This document shows, in pieces, positions 3 through 6,951 of a stretch of 6,951 nt of DNA; positions within the stretch are counted from its first letter, which is position 1; every line of letters starts with the position of its first letter. The translations under genes and the position numbers were made by a program. The notes below the pieces were generated by a model. That model ran no database searches, was not told the origin of the DNA, and saw only the letters and a program-made list of their open reading frames with translations. Origin of the DNA: a bacterium (GTDB lineage Bacteria; Chloroflexota; Dormibacteria; UBA8260; Bog-877); assembly GCA_021817025.1 (NCBI GenBank), contig JAKAWF010000176.1:1-6951 (forward strand). The letters are read 5' to 3'.

Positions 3-1058
3 CGGGTGGGCATCCAGTTCCATCCCGAGGTCGCCCACACTCCCCAGGGGGCGGCGATGCTGGCCAACTTCCTGTATCAGACCTGCGGTTGCCAGGGGAA
101 CTGGGAGGCGACCAGCTTCGTCGATCAGGCGGTCGCGGAGATCCGGCGCAAGGTCGGCGAGGCGAGCGTGATCTGCGCGCTCTCTGGGGGGGTCGACTCA
201 GCGGTGGTCGCCACCTTGGTCCACCGCGCGATCGGGGACCAGCTCACCTGCATCTTCGTGGACAACGGCCTGCTGCGCCGGGGTGAGGCCGACCGGGTCA
301 TCGACGTCCTCACCCGCAGCATGCGGATGAAGATCGTCCGGGTGGAGGCTGAGGACAGATTCCTGGATGCCCTGGCGGGTGTGGTCGACCCTGAGGAGAA
401 GCGCAGGATCGTGGGCCGTGAGTTCATCTCCGCCTTCGAGGAGGAGACCGGCCGCCTGGGTCCAGTGCCTTTCCTGGCCCAGGGGACCCTGTACCCGGAC
501 GTCATCGAGAGCACCTCGGCCGACACCTTCGGCGCGCGCAAGATCAAGACCCATCACAATGTCGGCGGGCTGCCCTTGGGAATGCGCTTCGAGTTGGTGG
601 AGCCGCTGCGCTACCTCTTCAAGGACGAGGTGCGCCGGGTGGGAAGGGCGTTGGGACTGCCTGACGACCTGGTCATGCGCCAGCCCTTCCCCGGGCCGGG
701 GCTGGCGATCCGGATCATCGGCGAGGTCAACCGAGAGCGCCTGGAGACGGTGCGAGGGGCGGACTGGGTCGTGATCGACGAGATCAAGCACAGCGGCCTC
801 TACGGCAAGGTCTGGCAGAGCTTTGCGATCCTGACCCCCGTCAGCAGTGTGGGCGTGATGGGCGACTTCCGGACCTACGCCAATGTCGTCGCGGTCAGGA
901 TCGTGACCTCCGAGGACGGGATGACAGCGGACTGGGCGCGGGTTCCCTACGACGTTCTGGCCGACATCAGCCGGCGGATCGTGAACGAGGTGCCCGGGGT
1001 CAATCGGGTCGTCTACGACATCAGCAGCAAGCCACCCTCGACTATCGAGTGGGAGTGA
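3..1058 (+). CDS. guaA: GMP synthase (glutamine-hydrolysing), 5'-truncated by the window edge
   Basis: GuaA makes GMP from XMP, glutamine and ATP in the cytoplasm, the last step of de novo guanylate synthesis. About 351 residues are visible of a family length near 510-525; the reading frame is open to the left edge, so most of the N-terminal amidotransferase domain, including its catalytic Cys, is missing. The first visible residues include the QFHPEV motif, whose His and Glu complete the class I amidotransferase triad. The linker CGCQGNW follows, then the ATP-pyrophosphatase P-loop SGGVDS (about nt 183-200), [19 protein letters not shown], and the dimerisation-domain motif [11 protein letters not shown] (nt 684-716). 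The C-terminus ends in the family signature KPPSTIEWE. The GTG at 6-8 is an internal Val codon, not a start. The stop overlaps the start of purD. No frame break or missing motif is seen in the visible part. Identification is certain at family level. Confidence 0.97.
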
Positions 1059-2341
1059 CCGAACCCGCGGGCGCGGCCGGGCTGCACGTGCTGGTGGTCG
1101 GCGGTGGGGGTAGGGAGCATGCCCTCGCCTGGGCCTGCGCGCGCAGCCCGGAGGTGGCCCGGGTCAGCTGTGCCCCGGGCAATGGGGGCACAGCCCAGCT
1201 GGGATCCAACTGGAATGTTGCCGCCACCGATGCTGCCGGCATCGCGGGGCTGGCCCGGGCGGAGGCCGCCGATCTGGTCATCCTGGGACCCGATGCGGCG
1301 GTGGCGGCCGGGGTTGGAGATGCCCTCGGCGCCAGCGGGATCAGCTTCTTCGGGCCCACCCGGGCCGCTGGTGAGCTGGAGATCAGCAAAGCGTTCGGCA
1401 AGGAGTTGATGGCTCGGGTCGGTATCCGCACCGCCCCCTTCGCCGTCTGCCGCGATCCCGACCAGGCGCGCCGGCAGGTGCGGCTCCGTGATGGCCCGGT
1501 GGTGGTGAAGGCGGACGGCCTGGCGCTGGGCAAGGGAGCATTCGTGTGCCAGGGCCCGGAGGAGGCGGCTTCCGTCATCGACCGGCTGATGGTGAGGGGC
1601 GCGCTGGGAGAGGCGGGTCGGACGGTGATCATCGAGGACCGGCTCGAGGGGCCCGAGGTCTCCCTCTTCGCGCTCTGTGACGGCGAGCGGGCGGTGATGC
1701 TGCCCCCGGCGTGTGACTACAAGCGCGCCCTGGACGGGGACTTGGGCGGCAACACCGGTGGCATGGGCTCCTATGCGCCGCCGCGGCTGGCGCCTGCCGA
1801 CGAGCTGAACCGAAGGGCCCTGGCCGAGATCGTGGCGCCGACGCTGGCCGAGATGTCGCGGTTGGGAAGGCCGTTTCGCGGCTGCCTCTACATCGGAGGC
1901 ATGCTGGTCGGGAACGAGATCAACGTGCTGGAGTACAACGCCCGGTTCGGGGACCCCGAAGCCGAGGTGCTTCTCCCCCTGCTGTCCGATCCCGTGCCCC
2001 TGCTGCGGGCAGTTGCGGCGGGCGACCTCGGGCTTGCAGGTCCTCCGGCTTCAGCCGCCGCCTGTTCGGTGGGCGTGGTGGCGGTCAGGGAGCCGTACCC
2101 AGAACCGGTCCAGGAAGGAGGCTTGATCGAGGGCGTGGCGGACGCTGAGGCTCTGGGCTGCCTGGTATTCCACATGGGCACCAAGGCCGTCGCCAACAGG
2201 GCGGTGGGGGTCGCGGGCGGCCGTGTGCTGATCTGTGTCGCCACCGGGGTCGATCTCCGCGCCGCTCGAGGGGCGGCCTACGCCGGGATGGCCCAGATCC
2301 ACTTTGAGGGGATCCGCTACCGTTCCGACATCGCCGCCTGA
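1055..2341 (+). CDS. purD: Phosphoribosylamine-glycine ligase (GAR synthetase)
   Basis: PurD joins glycine to 5-phosphoribosylamine with ATP, the second step of de novo purine synthesis. The protein is about 428 residues, normal for the family. Its nucleotide-fold start carries [11 protein letters not shown] (about residues 16-26). The ATP-grasp core follows with [10 protein letters not shown] (about 152-161), the EGPEVS strand, NTGGMG (about 233-238) and the metal-binding [12 protein letters not shown] (about 293-304), where many homologues have PETQ instead of PEAE. A C-terminal domain completes it. I chose GTG at 1055 because it gives a GTGA four-base overlap with the guaA stop and has a GAG five bases upstream. 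In-frame alternatives are GTG 1049 (two residues longer) and GTG 1088, which would begin with LVVGGGG like many homologues but has no visible ribosome site. Overlap with guaA implies one operon and translational coupling. The function call is firm; the start is uncertain. Confidence 0.96.
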
Positions 2342-2377: not shown

Positions 2378-2755
2378 ATGCCTGACGCCAACCCCCAACC
2401 GGCGAACCCAGGCACCGAGGGAGAGGCTCGGGTCCGCCTCGAGACCAAGCTGGTGGAGCTGGATTCGGAGCTGGCCGAGCTGAGTCTCGGCCTCGGCGCG
2501 CCCACCGCTCCCGTGCAGTATGGCAAGCGCGCCGGCGATCACATCAACGAGGTCTCAGATCGGCTCGCCCGAGCGCGAGCGGCGGAGCAGCTGGAGAAGT
2601 TGGCGGATCAGGTGCGAGCCGCCCTCCAGCGGCTGGGGACCGGCGGCTACGGTCGCTGCGAACGCTGCGGTCGTGCCATCCCGGCGGGGCGGCTGGAAGC
2701 CCTGCCCTGGGCGGTCAGGTGCGTCGAGTGCGCCGCCTTGCGGGGTCCGGCCTGA
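2378..2755 (+). CDS. DksA/TraR-family C4 zinc-finger protein
   Basis: This 125-residue protein has the architecture of DksA/TraR proteins, which enter the RNA polymerase secondary channel and alter promoter response, often with ppGpp. Residues about 15-85 are heptad-rich and charged (helical hairpin: LETKLVELDSELAEL, then DRLARARAAEQLEKLADQV). The C-terminus has a C4 zinc finger, CERC (94-97) and CVEC (115-118), separated by 17 residues, with the family signature GRCERCG and the segment RLEALPWAVRC. It is shorter than E. coli DksA (151) and longer than TraR (73). The hairpin-tip region (about 48-62, QYGKRAGDHINEVSDR) lacks the acidic DxxDxA motif of E. coli DksA, so an identical activity should not be assumed. 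ATG 2378 is the start; GGTAGG at 2361-2366 is a possible but distant ribosome site. It lies 36 bases after purD, probably the same transcript, and a strong hairpin follows its stop. Family is clear; targets are unknown. Confidence 0.88.
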   Translation: MPDANPQPANPGTEGEARVRLETKLVELDSELAELSLGLGAPTAPVQYGKRAGDHINEVSDRLARARAAEQLEKLADQVRAALQRLGTGGYGRCERCGRAIPAGRLEALPWAVRCVECAALRGPA

Positions 2756-3295: not shown

Positions 3296-5134
3296 ATGGC
3301 CGCTGTAGGACTGATCGAGAGCTGCCTTCGTCACGGGCAGCAGACTCTCCTCTCCAGTCGGCTGAGGACCCGCCACCTCACCGCGCTGGCCGAGCAGTTG
3401 GACGGCAGTGGCCTGGCGGGCCTTGACGTGTTCGGCGGCGCGACCTTCGGGGTAGCTCTCAGCAATCTTGGAGAGGACCCGTTCGACCGGCTGCGGGCCG
3501 TCCGGGCGGCCACCTCGCTGCCCCTCTACGGCCTGATTCGGGGGCAGGCTCTGGTCGGCAACAGGCCCCTGCCGGACGATGTGGTGGACCGCTTCGTGGC
3601 CACGGTGGCGAGCCTGGGGCTGGATGTGTTCCGGTGCTTTGATCCCCTCAACGATGTGCGCAATCTGGCGCGCGTGGTCGAGGCCGTCCGCGCCGCCGGC
3701 AAGCTCGCCGAGGCCGCCCTCGTGTACACGGAGAGTCCGGTCCACTCCAACGATGGCTTCGTGCGCCTGGGCGTGGACCTGGCTGGGATGGGATTCCAGA
3801 GCCTCAGCCTCTTCGACCCAGCGGGTATGCTGGGCGCCGGCAGTGCGAGGTCGATCGTCTCCGGCCTGGTGGCCCAGACCGGCCTACCGGTCAGCGTCCA
3901 CTGCGCCACGATCACGGGCCAGGCCGCCTTTGCCTACCTGGCCGCCGCCGAGGCGGGGGCCACTTCGCTCGACGTCTGCCTCTCGCCGCTGGCGGGGGGG
4001 GCATCACTGCCGGGCACCGAGGGGGTGCTGGCCGCGCTGCGCGGAACCGAGCTCGCCCCGGATGTGGATCCAGCCGCGGTGCTGGCGGCGGCGGACAGCC
4101 TGGATCGACTGATGCCCCTCTACGGCCTCGTCGCCGACCCCAACGGATGGCAGCTGGATTCGAGCACTCTGAGGACCCAGATGGCTCCCTCCGTCCAACA
4201 GCACCTGGTTTGGGAGTGTGAGGCCCAGGGGGTCGAGGAGCGCCTTCCGGCGGTGGTGGAGGAGATCTCCCGGGTTCGGGCCGACATGGGTTACCCGGCA
4301 TTGATCAGCCCCGTGGCCGAGGTGGTGGTGAGCCAGGCGGTGGCCAACGTGGCCTCGGGGGATCGCTACCTGATCGTTGGGCAGGACCTGAAGGACTATT
4401 TCCTGGGGCTTTTCGGGGAGCCGCCGGGGCCCCCGGACCCAGAGGTCAGACGACGGGTGATCGGCACCGAGGAGCCGATCACCGTGCGCCCGGGCGACGT
4501 GCTCGAGCCGATGCTGGGGGCCGCTCGCCGGCGCCTGGTCCGCCGCGGGCTGGGCGAGCCATCGGATGAGAAGCTGCTGGAGTTCGTGCTCTTTCCCGAG
4601 GCGACCGCCAACGCCATTCGCGGTGAGCTGAGAGGCGAGCGCCTCGGAGACGAGCCGGAGCTTGAACCGGCGGTTGTCATCAAGGAAGCGGCCGCGGCGC
4701 TGGTGGATGGCGGGGATCTGAGTGAGCCGATCGGGGACGCGGCGGGGATCCCCATGGCCGCGCCGCCCATGCCCACAGCGGCCCCGGAGCGGCCGGTGGA
4801 GGAGGCCGCGGCGGCCAGGCAGTTCACAGTCGAGGTGGACGGGGAGCTGTTCGAGGTCAAGGTGGTGGCCAGGGACCTGGGCTCCGTCGGTGCGGCTCAG
4901 AGGCCGCCGACACCGGCTGGCGGGGGGGCGGTGAAGGCCCCCATGCAGGGGCTGATCGCGAAGATCCCGGTCAGGGTCGGCGACCACGTCGAGGTCGGCC
5001 AGACAATCGCCGTGCTGGAGGCGATGAAGATGCAGAACGACATCCCCTCTGATGTCGCCGGCATCGTCCAGGCCGTCAACGTGGCCGAGGGGCAGGTGGT
5101 CAGCCGGGGCGACTCCCTGGTGACCATCGCCTGA
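3296..5134 (+). CDS. PycB/OadA-type carboxyltransferase-biotin carrier subunit with a degenerate carboxyltransferase active site
   Basis: The family moves CO2 from carboxybiotin to pyruvate (PycB), 2-oxoglutarate (CfiA) or the reverse from oxaloacetate (OadA). The 612 residues form a normal-length PycB: a TIM-barrel carboxyltransferase (about 5-290), the helical domain (about 290-470, with SRVRADMGYP and IGTEEPIT), Pro/Ala linkers (about 484-508 and 534-545) and a biotinyl domain (about 546-612) with intact EAMKM, Lys578 being the expected biotin site. Kept barrel motifs are GGATF, RGQ, LNDVRN, YTESPVH and LSPLA. However, residues aligned with known pyruvate carboxylase active-site positions differ: LRDGQQ is LRHGQQ (His13), GGATFD ends in Gly52, VGY is VGN (Asn89), IKDxAG is LFDPAG (Phe173), HxHD is HCAT (His202, Ala204), GTSQP is GASLP (Ala236). 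The QxPGG loop is also lost. The frame is intact, so it is not an ordinary pseudogene. No OadB/OadG genes are visible; the biotin carboxylase follows 11 bases later. Family is sure, reaction is not. Confidence 0.9.
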   Translation: MAAVGLIESCLRHGQQTLLSSRLRTRHLTALAEQLDGSGLAGLDVFGGATFGVALSNLGEDPFDRLRAVRAATSLPLYGLIRGQALVGNRPLPDDVVDRFVATVASLGLDVFRCFDPLNDVRNLARVVEAVRAAGKLAEAALVYTESPVHSNDGFVRLGVDLAGMGFQSLSLFDPAGMLGAGSARSIVSGLVAQTGLPVSVHCATITGQAAFAYLAAAEAGATSLDVCLSPLAGGASLPGTEGVLAALRGTELAPDVDPAAVLAAADSLDRLMPLYGLVADPNGWQLDSSTLRTQMAPSVQQHLVWECEAQGVEERLPAVVEEISRVRADMGYPALISPVAEVVVSQAVANVASGDRYLIVGQDLKDYFLGLFGEPPGPPDPEVRRRVIGTEEPITVRPGDVLEPMLGAARRRLVRRGLGEPSDEKLLEFVLFPEATANAIRGELRGERLGDEPELEPAVVIKEAAAALVDGGDLSEPIGDAAGIPMAAPPMPTAAPERPVEEAAAARQFTVEVDGELFEVKVVARDLGSVGAAQRPPTPAGGGAVKAPMQGLIAKIPVRVGDHVEVGQTIAVLEAMKMQNDIPSDVAGIVQAVNVAEGQVVSRGDSLVTIA

Positions 5135-5145
5135 GGCCGGCCCAG

Positions 5146-6594
5146 GTGTTCGACACCGTCCTGGTGGCCAACCGCGGCGAGATTGCGGTCCGGGTGATCC
5201 GGGCCTGCAGGGATCTTGGGCTGCGCTCGGTGGCGGTCCATTCCGAGGCCGACCGGGGCGCCTTCCACACCCGATTGGCGGACGCGGCCGTGGAGATCGG
5301 GCCAAGTCCGGCCGCGCAGTCCTATCTCGACTTGAACCGGCTCATCGCGGCCGCCAAGGAGAGCGGCGCGCAGGCGATCCATCCCGGCTACGGATTCCTG
5401 TCCGAGAGCCCCAGGCTGGCCCGGGCCTGCGCTGACAACGGCCTGGTGCTGATCGGGCCGCCCGAGGAAGCCATGGCTGCCATGGGCGACAAGGTCACCG
5501 CTCGCGGCAGGATGCGGGCGGCGGGCGTCCCGGTGGTGCCTGGGACCGATGCCATCGCAGACCAGGGGGAGGCCGTGGCGGCTGCCCACGAGATCGGCTA
5601 CCCGATCCTGGTCAAGGCCTCCGCCGGGGGCGGGGGCATCGGCATGCGGGCGGCCCGGGACGAGGACGAGCTCAAGTACGCCATCCAGGTTTGCAGCGAC
5701 GCCGCTGCCCGCTCCTTCGGAGATCCCCGGGTGTTTCTGGAGCGGCTGGTGGACGAGCCCCGCCACATCGAAATCCAGGTGTTGGCCGACTCCCACGGCA
5801 ACACCATCCATCTCGGCGAGCGCGAGTGCTCGATCCAGCGGCGCCACCAGAAGCTGCTCGAGGAGAGCCCCTCCACCGCGGTGACCGAGGAGATGCGCCA
5901 GCGGATGGGGGAGGCCGCGGTCAGAGCCGCCCGGGCGGTCGGCTACGTCAACGCGGGCACCGTGGAGTTCATCGAGTCCCGAGGCTCGTTCTACTTCCTC
6001 GAGATGAACACCCGGCTTCAGGTGGAGCATCCGGTGACGGAGCTGGTGACCGGGGTCGACTTGGTGGTGGCCCAGCTGAGGGTCGCCTTGGGCGAGCGTT
6101 TGTCGCTCACCCAAGAGCAGGTGCGCCGCGACGGCTGGGCGATCGAGTGCAGGGTCAACGCCGAGGACCCGTGGGAGGACTTCCTGCCCACTCCGGGCCG
6201 GGTCTCCGCCTACCACGAGCCCTCCGGCCCGGGCGTCAGGGTGGACAGCTCGCTGGCCGGCCCAGGGGTCGTGAGCCCCTTCTACGACCCCATGATCTCC
6301 AAGTTGATAGTGCATGGGCCCACCCGGGAGCAGGCCGCGGCCCGGGCCCGCCGCGCCCTCTGGGAATACTGGATCGCGGGGATCACCACCAACATCCCGT
6401 ATCACGCCGTCCTGCTGGAGGACGCCGACTTTCTGGCGGGGCGACTGACAACCGAGTTCATCCCCACCCACCCGGACCTGATGGGCAGGGCTCGAGATTG
6501 GCAGCAGCGGCAGGCTCAGGTGATGGCCCAGTTTGGAACCGACAAGCGTCGGCTGGCGGCCATGGCTGCCGCCCTGGCCGTCGCCGGAGTCTGA
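5146..6594 (+). CDS. accC: Biotin carboxylase subunit (PycA/AccC type)
   Basis: This ATP-grasp enzyme uses ATP and bicarbonate to carboxylate biotin on a carrier domain, here most likely that of the gene just upstream. The 482 residues match the usual 445-500 of stand-alone subunits. Motifs in order: VANRGEIAVRVIR (7-19), HPGYGFLSE (79-87), DK (115-116), KASAGGGGIGMR (157-168), GERECSIQRRHQK (224-236), VEF (273-275), EMNTRLQVEHPVTE (286-299), ECR (334-336). With a constant offset of two, the E. coli AccC residues Lys159, His236, Lys238, Glu276, Glu288, Asn290, Arg292, Glu296 and Arg338 are all present, so activity is expected. The glycine loop has GIGM where E. coli has GRGM, a variant I believe occurs in other biotin carboxylases such as urea carboxylase. 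GTG 5146 is chosen because FDTVLVANRGE follows at once; GAGG at 5133-5136 is a weak ribosome site. Whether it also serves acetyl- or propionyl-CoA carboxylases cannot be told; pycA is an equally fair name. Confidence 0.93.
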   Translation: MFDTVLVANRGEIAVRVIRACRDLGLRSVAVHSEADRGAFHTRLADAAVEIGPSPAAQSYLDLNRLIAAAKESGAQAIHPGYGFLSESPRLARACADNGLVLIGPPEEAMAAMGDKVTARGRMRAAGVPVVPGTDAIADQGEAVAAAHEIGYPILVKASAGGGGIGMRAARDEDELKYAIQVCSDAAARSFGDPRVFLERLVDEPRHIEIQVLADSHGNTIHLGERECSIQRRHQKLLEESPSTAVTEEMRQRMGEAAVRAARAVGYVNAGTVEFIESRGSFYFLEMNTRLQVEHPVTELVTGVDLVVAQLRVALGERLSLTQEQVRRDGWAIECRVNAEDPWEDFLPTPGRVSAYHEPSGPGVRVDSSLAGPGVVSPFYDPMISKLIVHGPTREQAAARARRALWEYWIAGITTNIPYHAVLLEDADFLAGRLTTEFIPTHPDLMGRARDWQQRQAQVMAQFGTDKRRLAAMAAALAVAGV

Positions 6595-6874
6595 CGGGAC
6601 GAAGCTGGCGCGGAGCTGCCCTCCCTGGCCCCTGGCTGGCCCGGGTGCGGGGTTGGCGCTCAGCCACGGGGCCTCGGTGGTGGCCCAGGCCAGGAGTAGC
6701 CGCGGGATTGAGCCGTAGGGGACCCCAGTCTTCGACCGGGTTGGAACGGTCAGCTCGACCCGACCGTTCCGGCGGACTACCCTAAGCCTGGATCTCTCAA
6801 CTTTGCCCGTGGATCGCCCACATGAATGCCGGGAGGCCCGAAATTGGCGACGCCAGGAGCCGCGGTCGCTGACG
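6595..6874. other. Convergent intergenic region
   Basis: This 280-base gap lies between the biotin carboxylase stop and the stop of a gene on the opposite strand. I see no credible gene or RNA signature in it. It contains a perfect 9-bp inverted repeat at 6743-6770 and a short palindrome GGGGACCCC at 6718-6726. A shared transcription end zone is the simplest reading. Confidence 0.5.
6743..6770. terminator. Inverted repeat between convergent genes, possible bidirectional terminator
   Basis: GGAACGGTC (6743-6751) and GACCGTTCC (6762-6770) are perfect reverse complements around a 10-base loop. On + strand RNA the stem can be lengthened by two U-G pairs and one G-C pair (6740-6742 with 6771-6773). 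It sits between two genes that point at each other, where terminators are expected. There is no T-run on either side, so intrinsic termination is inferred from position and symmetry only. An operator for an unseen gene is possible but less likely, since no gene is seen to start nearby. Confidence 0.4.
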
Positions 6875-6951
6875 TTACTCGACGCCGATGGCTCCGAGGA
6901 CATCGAGCCGGGCCGCGCGGCGGGCGGGCCAGCTAGCCGCGGCCAGACCAA
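6875..6951 (-). CDS. C-terminus of an FtsX/MacB-family ABC transporter permease (partial)
   Basis: Reading the minus strand from the right edge, the frame ending at the TAA on 6877-6875 gives GLAAASWPARRAARLDVLGA followed by IGVE and the stop. This closely matches the usual end of FtsX/MacB-type permeases: the cytoplasmic tail after the last membrane helix, P-A-R-R-A-A-R-L-D-x-L-x-A-I/L, with a terminal acidic residue. Such permeases work with an ATPase partner in lipoprotein, peptide or drug export or in mechanotransmission; nothing here shows which. Only about 24 residues are visible and the rest lies outside the window. A long open frame on the same strand in another register (reaching 4897) covers this stretch but is an antisense shadow. 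The gene is convergent with the carboxylase pair, so it is not part of that operon. Confidence rests on one short but characteristic motif. Confidence 0.72.
   Translation of the reverse strand, partial: GLAAASWPARRAARLDVLGAIGVE

Follow-up and report, generated by a model that had tools for sequence, protein, structure and literature searches.

A degenerate carboxyltransferase encoded beside a biotin carboxylase

The window analysed here, the whole 6,951-nucleotide Dormibacteria contig JAKAWF010000176.1, carries on its plus strand two adjacent genes that resemble those of a two-subunit pyruvate carboxylase (PC). The first encodes a 612-residue 'pyruvate carboxylase subunit B'-like protein (3296..5134) whose carboxyltransferase (CT) domain has a degenerate metal site; the second encodes a biotin carboxylase (BC) of 482 residues (5146..6594) and starts 11 nt past the stop of the first. 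The CT protein begins with an HMGL-like TIM barrel at residues ~5–300 (3308..4195; Pfam PF00682, residues 5–266), followed by the PYC_OADA conserved carboxylase domain (4217..4615; PF02436, 89.6 bits, residues 308–440), a linker and a biotinyl carrier (BCCP) domain (4931..5128; PF00364, residues 546–611). The biotinylation lysine, Lys578 (5027..5029), lies in the motif EAMKMQN and forms an invariant column in an alignment of 56 relatives.

In an NCBIfam search, the CT-BCCP protein passes the domain model for pyruvate carboxylase subunit B, PRK09282 (459 bits, cut-off 402), and falls below the cut-off of every equivalog model listed; neither the oadA equivalog (411.5 against 756.5) nor PRK12330 (270.4 against 827) is reached. 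The closest named proteins are two, 96% identical, from metagenome-assembled genomes (MAGs) of 'Candidatus Dormibacteria'. The organism names among the relatives listed are mostly Dormibacteria/Dormibacterota or Chloroflexi, the two others being Acidoferrales (P0030) and Micrarchaeaceae (P0042). By sequence and by fold alike, the best match is the two-subunit PC of M. flagellatus (MfPC; 5KS8). MfPC (PMC5059739) has a similar layout, with an alpha BC subunit of ~480 residues ending in an Ala-rich C-terminus and a beta subunit composed of CT, PYC_OADA, linker β-hairpin and BCCP. However, MfPC keeps all four metal ligands together with Asp590 and Tyr628, whereas the window protein is without three of the ligands and both of these residues.

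Three of the four metal ligands are replaced

The initial annotation had assigned eleven barrel residues to functional positions of PC and concluded that most of the metal site is gone. We took over its R. etli residue numbers and aligned the protein to the solved chains of transcarboxylase 5S (1rqb), OadA (2nx9) and the MfPC beta subunit (5ks8). All eleven assignments were reproduced, and the six codon positions given for altered residues match the window. His13 (3332..3334), Phe173 (3812..3814), His202 (3899..3901) and Ala204 (3905..3907) align opposite the D, K, H and H of all three chains. Because His13, Phe173 and Ala204 thus stand opposite Asp549, the carbamyl-lysine ligand Lys718 and His749, three of the four metal ligands are replaced, and His747, retained as His202, is the sole ligand kept. 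The motifs align without gaps, as the annotation had stated: the gap that comes closest spans two residues in 1rqb and falls directly before the HxH strand, outside the motif. In 1rqb, the aligned K, H and H carry chain indices 195, 226 and 228, an offset of 11 from the 5S ligand numbers D23/K184/H215/H217. There is no HxH motif within residues 1–445, and the only barrel lysine is K136.

Among the other positions, Gly52 (3449..3451) replaces Asp590, Asn89 (3560..3562) replaces Tyr628 and Ala236 (4001..4003) occupies the Thr882 column. Arg548, Gln552 and Arg621, the pyruvate-binding residues, are kept as Arg12 (3329..3331), Gln16 (3341..3343) and Arg82 (3539..3541), and Asp655 is kept as Asp116 (3641..3643). 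One argument of the annotation, the replacement of the catalytic Thr882, fails when taken alone: MfPC likewise has Ala at this column and is reported to show robust PC activity (PMC5059739), so the substitution is not diagnostic by itself. In the R. etli enzyme, the T882A substitution is reported to eliminate the oxaloacetate decarboxylation that oxamate induces (PMC5895798).

A single clade lacks the ligands, at one orthologous locus

Relatives were the best 120 of 289 proteins, drawn from 7,996 scored candidates, and loci came from 80 of 175 places (79 loci); because both sets hold the best matches, the sample represents the nearest kin of the query and includes a canonical outgroup of just 15 loci. 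Residue states were tabulated for 196 sequences, of which 76 are locus proteins (L020, L067 and L075 have no suitable frame) and 120 come from the database, including the protein of the window itself; L074, whose translation holds X, was excluded from alignment A3. Fifteen sequences are canonical, 32 intermediate and 149 degenerate. The canonical pattern, RDQDRYDKHHT, is found in archaea, Dehalococcoidia and one other Chloroflexi-labelled MAG, and all eleven columns are invariant there. Intermediates have Asp549, His747 and His749 and differ at other positions: Asp590 is changed to Glu or Ala, Tyr never occurs at 628, Lys718 is present in 21 of the 32 and Glu in nine, and Thr882 persists in eight. 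None of the 149 degenerate sequences has Lys718 or His749, and none of the 144 with a letter at that position has Asp549; His747 is present in 122. The ligand loss is therefore no one-off error, being shared by all 149 sequences and accompanied by the two MAG proteins of 96% identity. A tree of 54 of the 196 sequences, from which short rows, rows more than 80% alike and the eleven trait columns had been removed, bears out the degenerate clade that the annotation had proposed to look for, with 40 degenerate rows on one side of a single branch (support 100/99.8).

A further departure occurs among orthologous PycB proteins, nine of which (L028, L042, L049, L053, L056, L062, L063, L065 and L071) carry Glu in place of Lys718, with Asp590 changed to Ala, Tyr628 to Gln or Thr and Thr882 to Ala, and with Asp549, His747 and His749 kept. 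To judge from these residues, their metal site may possibly no longer need carbamylation.

Two genes lie upstream in the window as conserved neighbours, guaA (GMP synthase; 3..1058, its 5′ end cut by the window edge) and purD (phosphoribosylamine-glycine ligase; 1049..2341), both on the plus strand. Where at least 2.8 kb of upstream sequence is available, this pair precedes all 26 intermediate loci and 22 of 26 degenerate ones, against none of 12 canonical loci; the degenerate loci without it are L006, L007, L010 and L077. The shared synteny therefore identifies the degenerate and intermediate loci as one orthologous locus in different states, across which an order of ligand losses might be traced. 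A BC gene lies within 700 nt of the end of the CT match at 27 of 32 degenerate loci.

The degenerate sequences fall into subclades that differ in what they conserve. In subclade A, which includes the window (32 dereplicated members), Arg548, Gln552, Arg621, Asp655 and His747 are invariant. The columns of Asp590 (E, G or Q), Tyr628 (highly variable), Lys718 and Thr882 exceed the mean entropy of the barrel (0.76 bits); those of Asp549 (0.70) and His749 (0.40) lie below it. Subclade B (34 members) has Glu590, His628 and Tyr718 conserved or nearly so, with the pyruvate-binding residues and Asp655 invariant or nearly so, and subclade C has lost Arg621 (Ala, Gly or Ser instead) and has Ser at the His747 column in 19 of 21. 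No dereplicated row of any group lacks Asp655; among the degenerate sequences tabulated, one (P0084) has Asn there.

These patterns bear on three alternatives. That the protein is still a pyruvate carboxylase, binding metal through His13, His202 and other ligands, we regard as very unlikely. Its operon architecture and carrier are intact and active MfPC shares the Ala at the Thr882 column, but Gln at position 13 in six of the 32 subclade A members leaves no conserved two-His site, and Asp549, Lys718 and His749 are missing throughout the degenerate set. The barrel could instead be an active CT of a new type, with a metal-free or re-built site that accepts a keto acid or other carboxylate through Arg548, Gln552 and Arg621 and takes CO2 from carboxybiotin. 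The retention of these residues and Asp655 in subclades A and B, and the newly conserved residues of subclade B, argue for this possibility; we consider it unlikely, since four of the columns that are invariant in canonical sequences vary above the barrel mean in subclade A and since subclade C lacks both Arg621 and His747. Finally, the barrel may serve as a regulatory sensor, in which a keto acid or carboxylate bound to the retained arginines would tune the output of BC and BCCP to acyl-CoA carboxylation. The invariant residues of subclade A and the retention of BC-coupling features (below) would suit a sensor, but Arg621 is gone in subclade C, and we hold this reading to be distinctly improbable.

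The barrel is constrained but evolves faster, relative to BC, than canonical barrels

The barrel is under purifying selection, though relaxed relative to canonical CTs. Ratios of nonsynonymous to synonymous substitution (dN/dS) for the barrel were 0.078–0.126 over nine pairs, eight of them distinct (L007 equals L002 over 1,731 nt). For BC, values were 0.046–0.095 in seven of the eight pairs having BC, and 0.354 for L010/L012. At L012 (G011:C162), the BC beside the degenerate CT is split over two frames, and several other BC matches occur in that genome. Split frames and the predominance of MAGs among our sources might suggest an assembly artefact or a decaying pseudogene, but this is hardly credible for an open frame with a barrel dN/dS near 0.1, found in many genomes and in conserved synteny. 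The same constraint, together with the intact modelled fold, would also be expected of an active CT of a new type.

Rates were compared across loci with both CT and BC frames, minus L020 (63 rows including the window). The median barrel/BC distance ratio was 1.94 for degenerate pairs (n=298) against 0.91 for canonical pairs (36 pairs, from a small sample of nine rows), at comparable median BC distances (0.41 and 0.44, respectively), and resampling of disjoint pairs gave 1.93 (1.76–2.11) against 0.89 (0.72–0.99). The ratio of the PYC_OADA domain to BC was likewise raised (1.85 versus 0.99), whereas that of BCCP to BC was not (1.43 versus 1.42). The intermediate groups, which are of shallower depth, gave barrel/BC ratios of 1.11 and 0.87 and BCCP/BC ratios of 1.02 and 0.59. 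Relative to BC, the degenerate barrel thus evolves about twice as fast as canonical CTs, which also speaks against an active CT of a new type.

Fold and subunit coupling

An AlphaFold2 model of the CT-BCCP protein, built with 56 sequences, has a mean predicted local distance difference test score of 85.9. It superposes on OadA (2nx9_A) at 1.9 Å over 453 columns, covering the barrel and the next domain, and on transcarboxylase 5S at 1.8–1.9 Å; overall, the barrel fold agrees with 5S (1RQB) and OadA (2NX9) at 1.8–2.1 Å over ~450 columns. Both of these proteins differ from the window protein in having their metal ligands, and both have different partner subunits. Loop disorder was considered as a sign of metal loss and discarded: residues 14–18 are of low confidence, but a canonical control model (13 sequences) is low at residues 11–16 too.

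The ten catalytic residues of BC, numbered as in E. coli BC, are intact in every degenerate row that covers them (24–25 of 25). The linker between CT and BCCP contains a β-hairpin (4814..4867; model strands 507–514 and 517–524) whose EVDG core is kept in the ten rows compared, and BC ends in an Ala-rich hydrophobic segment, LAAMAAALAVAGV (6541..6591). The BT-like coupling domain described for MfPC includes a C-terminal α-helix and linker β-elements (PMC5059739). Both window features are likely to be BT-like coupling elements of this kind, the BC segment forming a helix that would hold the subunits together; in the window, such coupling is seen only as sequence and predicted-strand features. 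The other hallmarks of two-subunit PC present are the adjacent BC and CT-BCCP genes, Arg548, Gln552 and Arg621, and Lys578. By a crude test, whose threshold was set after seeing the window (small or hydrophobic residues at 12 or more of the 15 C-terminal positions), an Ala-rich BC tail is found in 13 of 24 complete degenerate proteins, in 6 of 18 and 6 of 10 in the intermediate groups and in none of nine canonical proteins. The last figure is expected, because the archaeal alpha subunit is described as having a longer C-terminal extension (PMC5059739).

Biotin carboxylases, carriers and acyl-CoA carboxyltransferases in related genomes

The genomic complement was surveyed in 31 genomes with a degenerate copy, all relatives of the window, and the searches for AccB and phosphoenolpyruvate carboxylase (PEPC) covered 50 of 78 genomes (for AccB, 31 degenerate, 14 intermediate and 5 canonical). 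L007 was not counted as a separate genome, because its record and that of L006 give one and the same bin. PYC_OADA proteins number one in 30 of the 31 genomes and two in G006, both degenerate; because every such protein is degenerate, an intact PC was not found in any of the 31, a result that would also suit a persisting PC function. The two different CT-BCCP copies L006 and L007 in one MAG bin (DS3.bin64) probably reflect a mixed bin, since the 1,731 nt noted above are shared without a difference by L007 and L002, a locus of another bin.

Exactly one BC was found in 23 of the 31 genomes, more than one in five and none in three; by coordinates, the single BC adjoins the CT gene in 20 of the 23. 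Carboxyl_trans matches occur in all 31 genomes, and AccD- and AccA-type matches together in 29. In three genomes (G023:C92, G026:C179 and G027:C35), the AccD and AccA matches seem to lie in one frame (651, 726 and 618 residues), which suggests a fused AccDA. The cut-off of the AccB model (TIGR00531) was exceeded in none of the 50 genomes searched, compared with 7 of 14 control genomes.

We looked more closely at nine close relatives (G001–G007, G010 and G022). BC was found once in each of eight and had no match in G007. Forty biotin/lipoyl stretches were fetched, three of which are CT-BCCP; none of the other 37 has an EAMKM-type motif, and those read are of the lipoyl type (TDK, TEK or TAK). 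Six further PF00364 matches lay outside the 40, and the second domains of four double stretches were covered by motif scan only. Apart from CT-BCCP, the AccB model matched two domains in these nine genomes, a lipoyl domain in G002 and the BCCP-like L120 in G006, which has no lysine. L120 (G006:C93:7900-8400) has VMTQ in place of the biotinyl motif, so that its biotinylation lysine is gone.

In close relatives, with the exception of G008, the BC and BCCP of the locus are thus the only ones found beside several acyl-CoA carboxyltransferases. The best models in G005 are those for AccA, AccD, methylmalonyl-CoA mutase, SucC and, twice, MmdA; G022 likewise has two MmdA by best model. A subfamily cut-off is passed by AccA, and the mutase domain and SucC clear their own cut-offs, whereas AccD and MmdA score under theirs, so that these names are given by best model. 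Acyl-CoA carboxyltransferases of the AccA/AccD and MmdA/PCC-beta types need both a BC and a carrier; as neither a further BC nor, among relatives of the window, a further carrier was found for them, the BC and BCCP of the locus would probably serve them. Each of the 32 intermediate genomes has a single BC, one of these matches being partial, and the 15 of 32 searched have four to eight Carboxyl_trans matches each; sharing of BC therefore seems older than the loss of the metal site.

Replacement of the anaplerotic function was considered as proof of a dead CT and is not established by the counts. PEPC was found in 14 of the 31 genomes and not found in 17, which would favour a surviving PC. A malic enzyme (E <1e-20) occurs in 19, a looser tally of 26 including weak partial matches, and GTP-dependent phosphoenolpyruvate carboxykinase was found in none of the 31, the ATP-dependent enzyme not having been searched for. 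PEPC or a malic enzyme at <1e-20 is present in 23 genomes.

A scaffold that may supply other carboxyltransferases

Three findings support the conclusion of the initial annotation that this is not an ordinary pyruvate carboxylase: ligand loss marks a clade, the barrel evolves faster when measured against BC, and the gene inventory connects the BC and BCCP of the locus with other carboxyltransferases. The annotation had offered two options, a pseudo-carboxyltransferase or a CT that uses a different acceptor and mechanism; of these, the first agrees better with the data and the second is less likely. On balance, we think it somewhat probable that the barrel serves as a scaffold, a pseudo-carboxyltransferase, and that the associated BC and BCCP charge acyl-CoA carboxyltransferases rather than making oxaloacetate. 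The ancestor would have been a two-subunit PC with BC as alpha and CT-BCCP as beta subunit. Some members of the group would then have lost the metal centre of the CT barrel and, most likely, pyruvate carboxylation with it, and they would have kept the beta subunit as a folded scaffold that docks BC and carries biotin, the barrel holding the complex together. BC would load the biotin of BCCP with CO2 from ATP and bicarbonate, and the carboxybiotin would pass to AccA/AccD, giving malonyl-CoA, and to transferases of the MmdA/PCC-beta type that act on propionyl-CoA.

Actinobacterial acyl-CoA carboxylase alpha subunits of the AccA3 type provide a precedent, one BC/BCCP unit being shared by several CT-beta subunits. 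The proposed role is analogous, one BC/BCCP serving several acyl-CoA carboxyltransferases. The architecture differs: AccA3-type proteins have BC and BCCP on one chain, whereas in the window they are split between two chains, BC alone on one and BCCP joined to a degenerate PC barrel on the other. The window system would therefore be a variant of two-subunit PC that, if our reading is right, does the work of a shared acyl-CoA carboxylase alpha unit but is not itself such a unit.

Several observations weigh against this scaffold reading. The invariance of Arg548, Gln552, Arg621, Asp655 and His747 in subclade A exceeds what a mere scaffold needs, and the re-conservation of E590, H628 and Y718 in subclade B hints at a new site. 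Single degenerate pairs have barrel/BC ratios anywhere between 0.43 and 4.43, and in the intermediate groups the BCCP/BC ratio used for comparison is inconstant. MAGs are incomplete, and the inventory comes from relatives rather than from the window's own genome. G008 carries two BCs, and the AccB model has four matches there. In G013, G014, G016, G017, G018 and G030, which lie outside the window's subclade, and in G012 (subclade B), a PCC-beta-type gene is accompanied by a second, short biotinyl carrier (ESMKM); because of it, the pseudo-CT is not the sole carrier in these seven genomes and is retained nonetheless. Neither PEPC nor a strong malic enzyme was found in 8 of the 31 genomes, close relatives G002, G003, G005 and G022 among them, so that an anaplerotic role is possible. 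G024 has a short carrier of the ESMKM kind elsewhere. Sole-carrier status as a general cause of decay is ruled out by the second short carriers of degenerate genomes outside the window's subclade.

A broader formulation of the active-barrel alternative, which we likewise hold to be unlikely, is a metal-independent DRE-TIM carboxyltransferase with a new acceptor or a ligand-sensing role, with BC and BCCP supplying all cellular acyl-CoA carboxylation. One orthologous locus would then preserve a series of states, from intact ligands through Glu in place of the carbamyl-lysine to a lost metal site with E, H and Y re-conserved.

If the scaffold reading is right, a central metabolic enzyme has lost its eponymous reaction and could not be discarded, because its BC and carrier are shared with lipid and propionate metabolism, and the loss of a metalloenzyme active site can be traced at a single orthologous locus. 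The annotation 'pyruvate carboxylase subunit B' would then be misleading here, with consequences for anaplerosis in metabolic models, and these natural barrels without metal ligands would be material for probing the role of the metal. In the open-access literature (subscription papers not covered), we found no paper linking pyruvate carboxylase with Dormibacter*, none on a degenerate or inactive carboxyltransferase by the phrases searched and none joining pseudoenzyme with biotin-dependent carboxylase; the accessible part of PMC3199775 contains nothing on degenerate CTs.

Other features of the window

Between purD and the CT gene lies a DksA/TraR-type zinc-finger gene (2378..2755; PF01258), a counterpart of which was matched at 10 of the 79 loci. 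All five window genes (the 3′ part of guaA, purD, the DksA/TraR-type gene, CT-BCCP and BC) are on the plus strand. Opposite BC, the minus strand has an antisense open frame of 684 residues (4897..6951), probably an artefact of GC-rich sequence.

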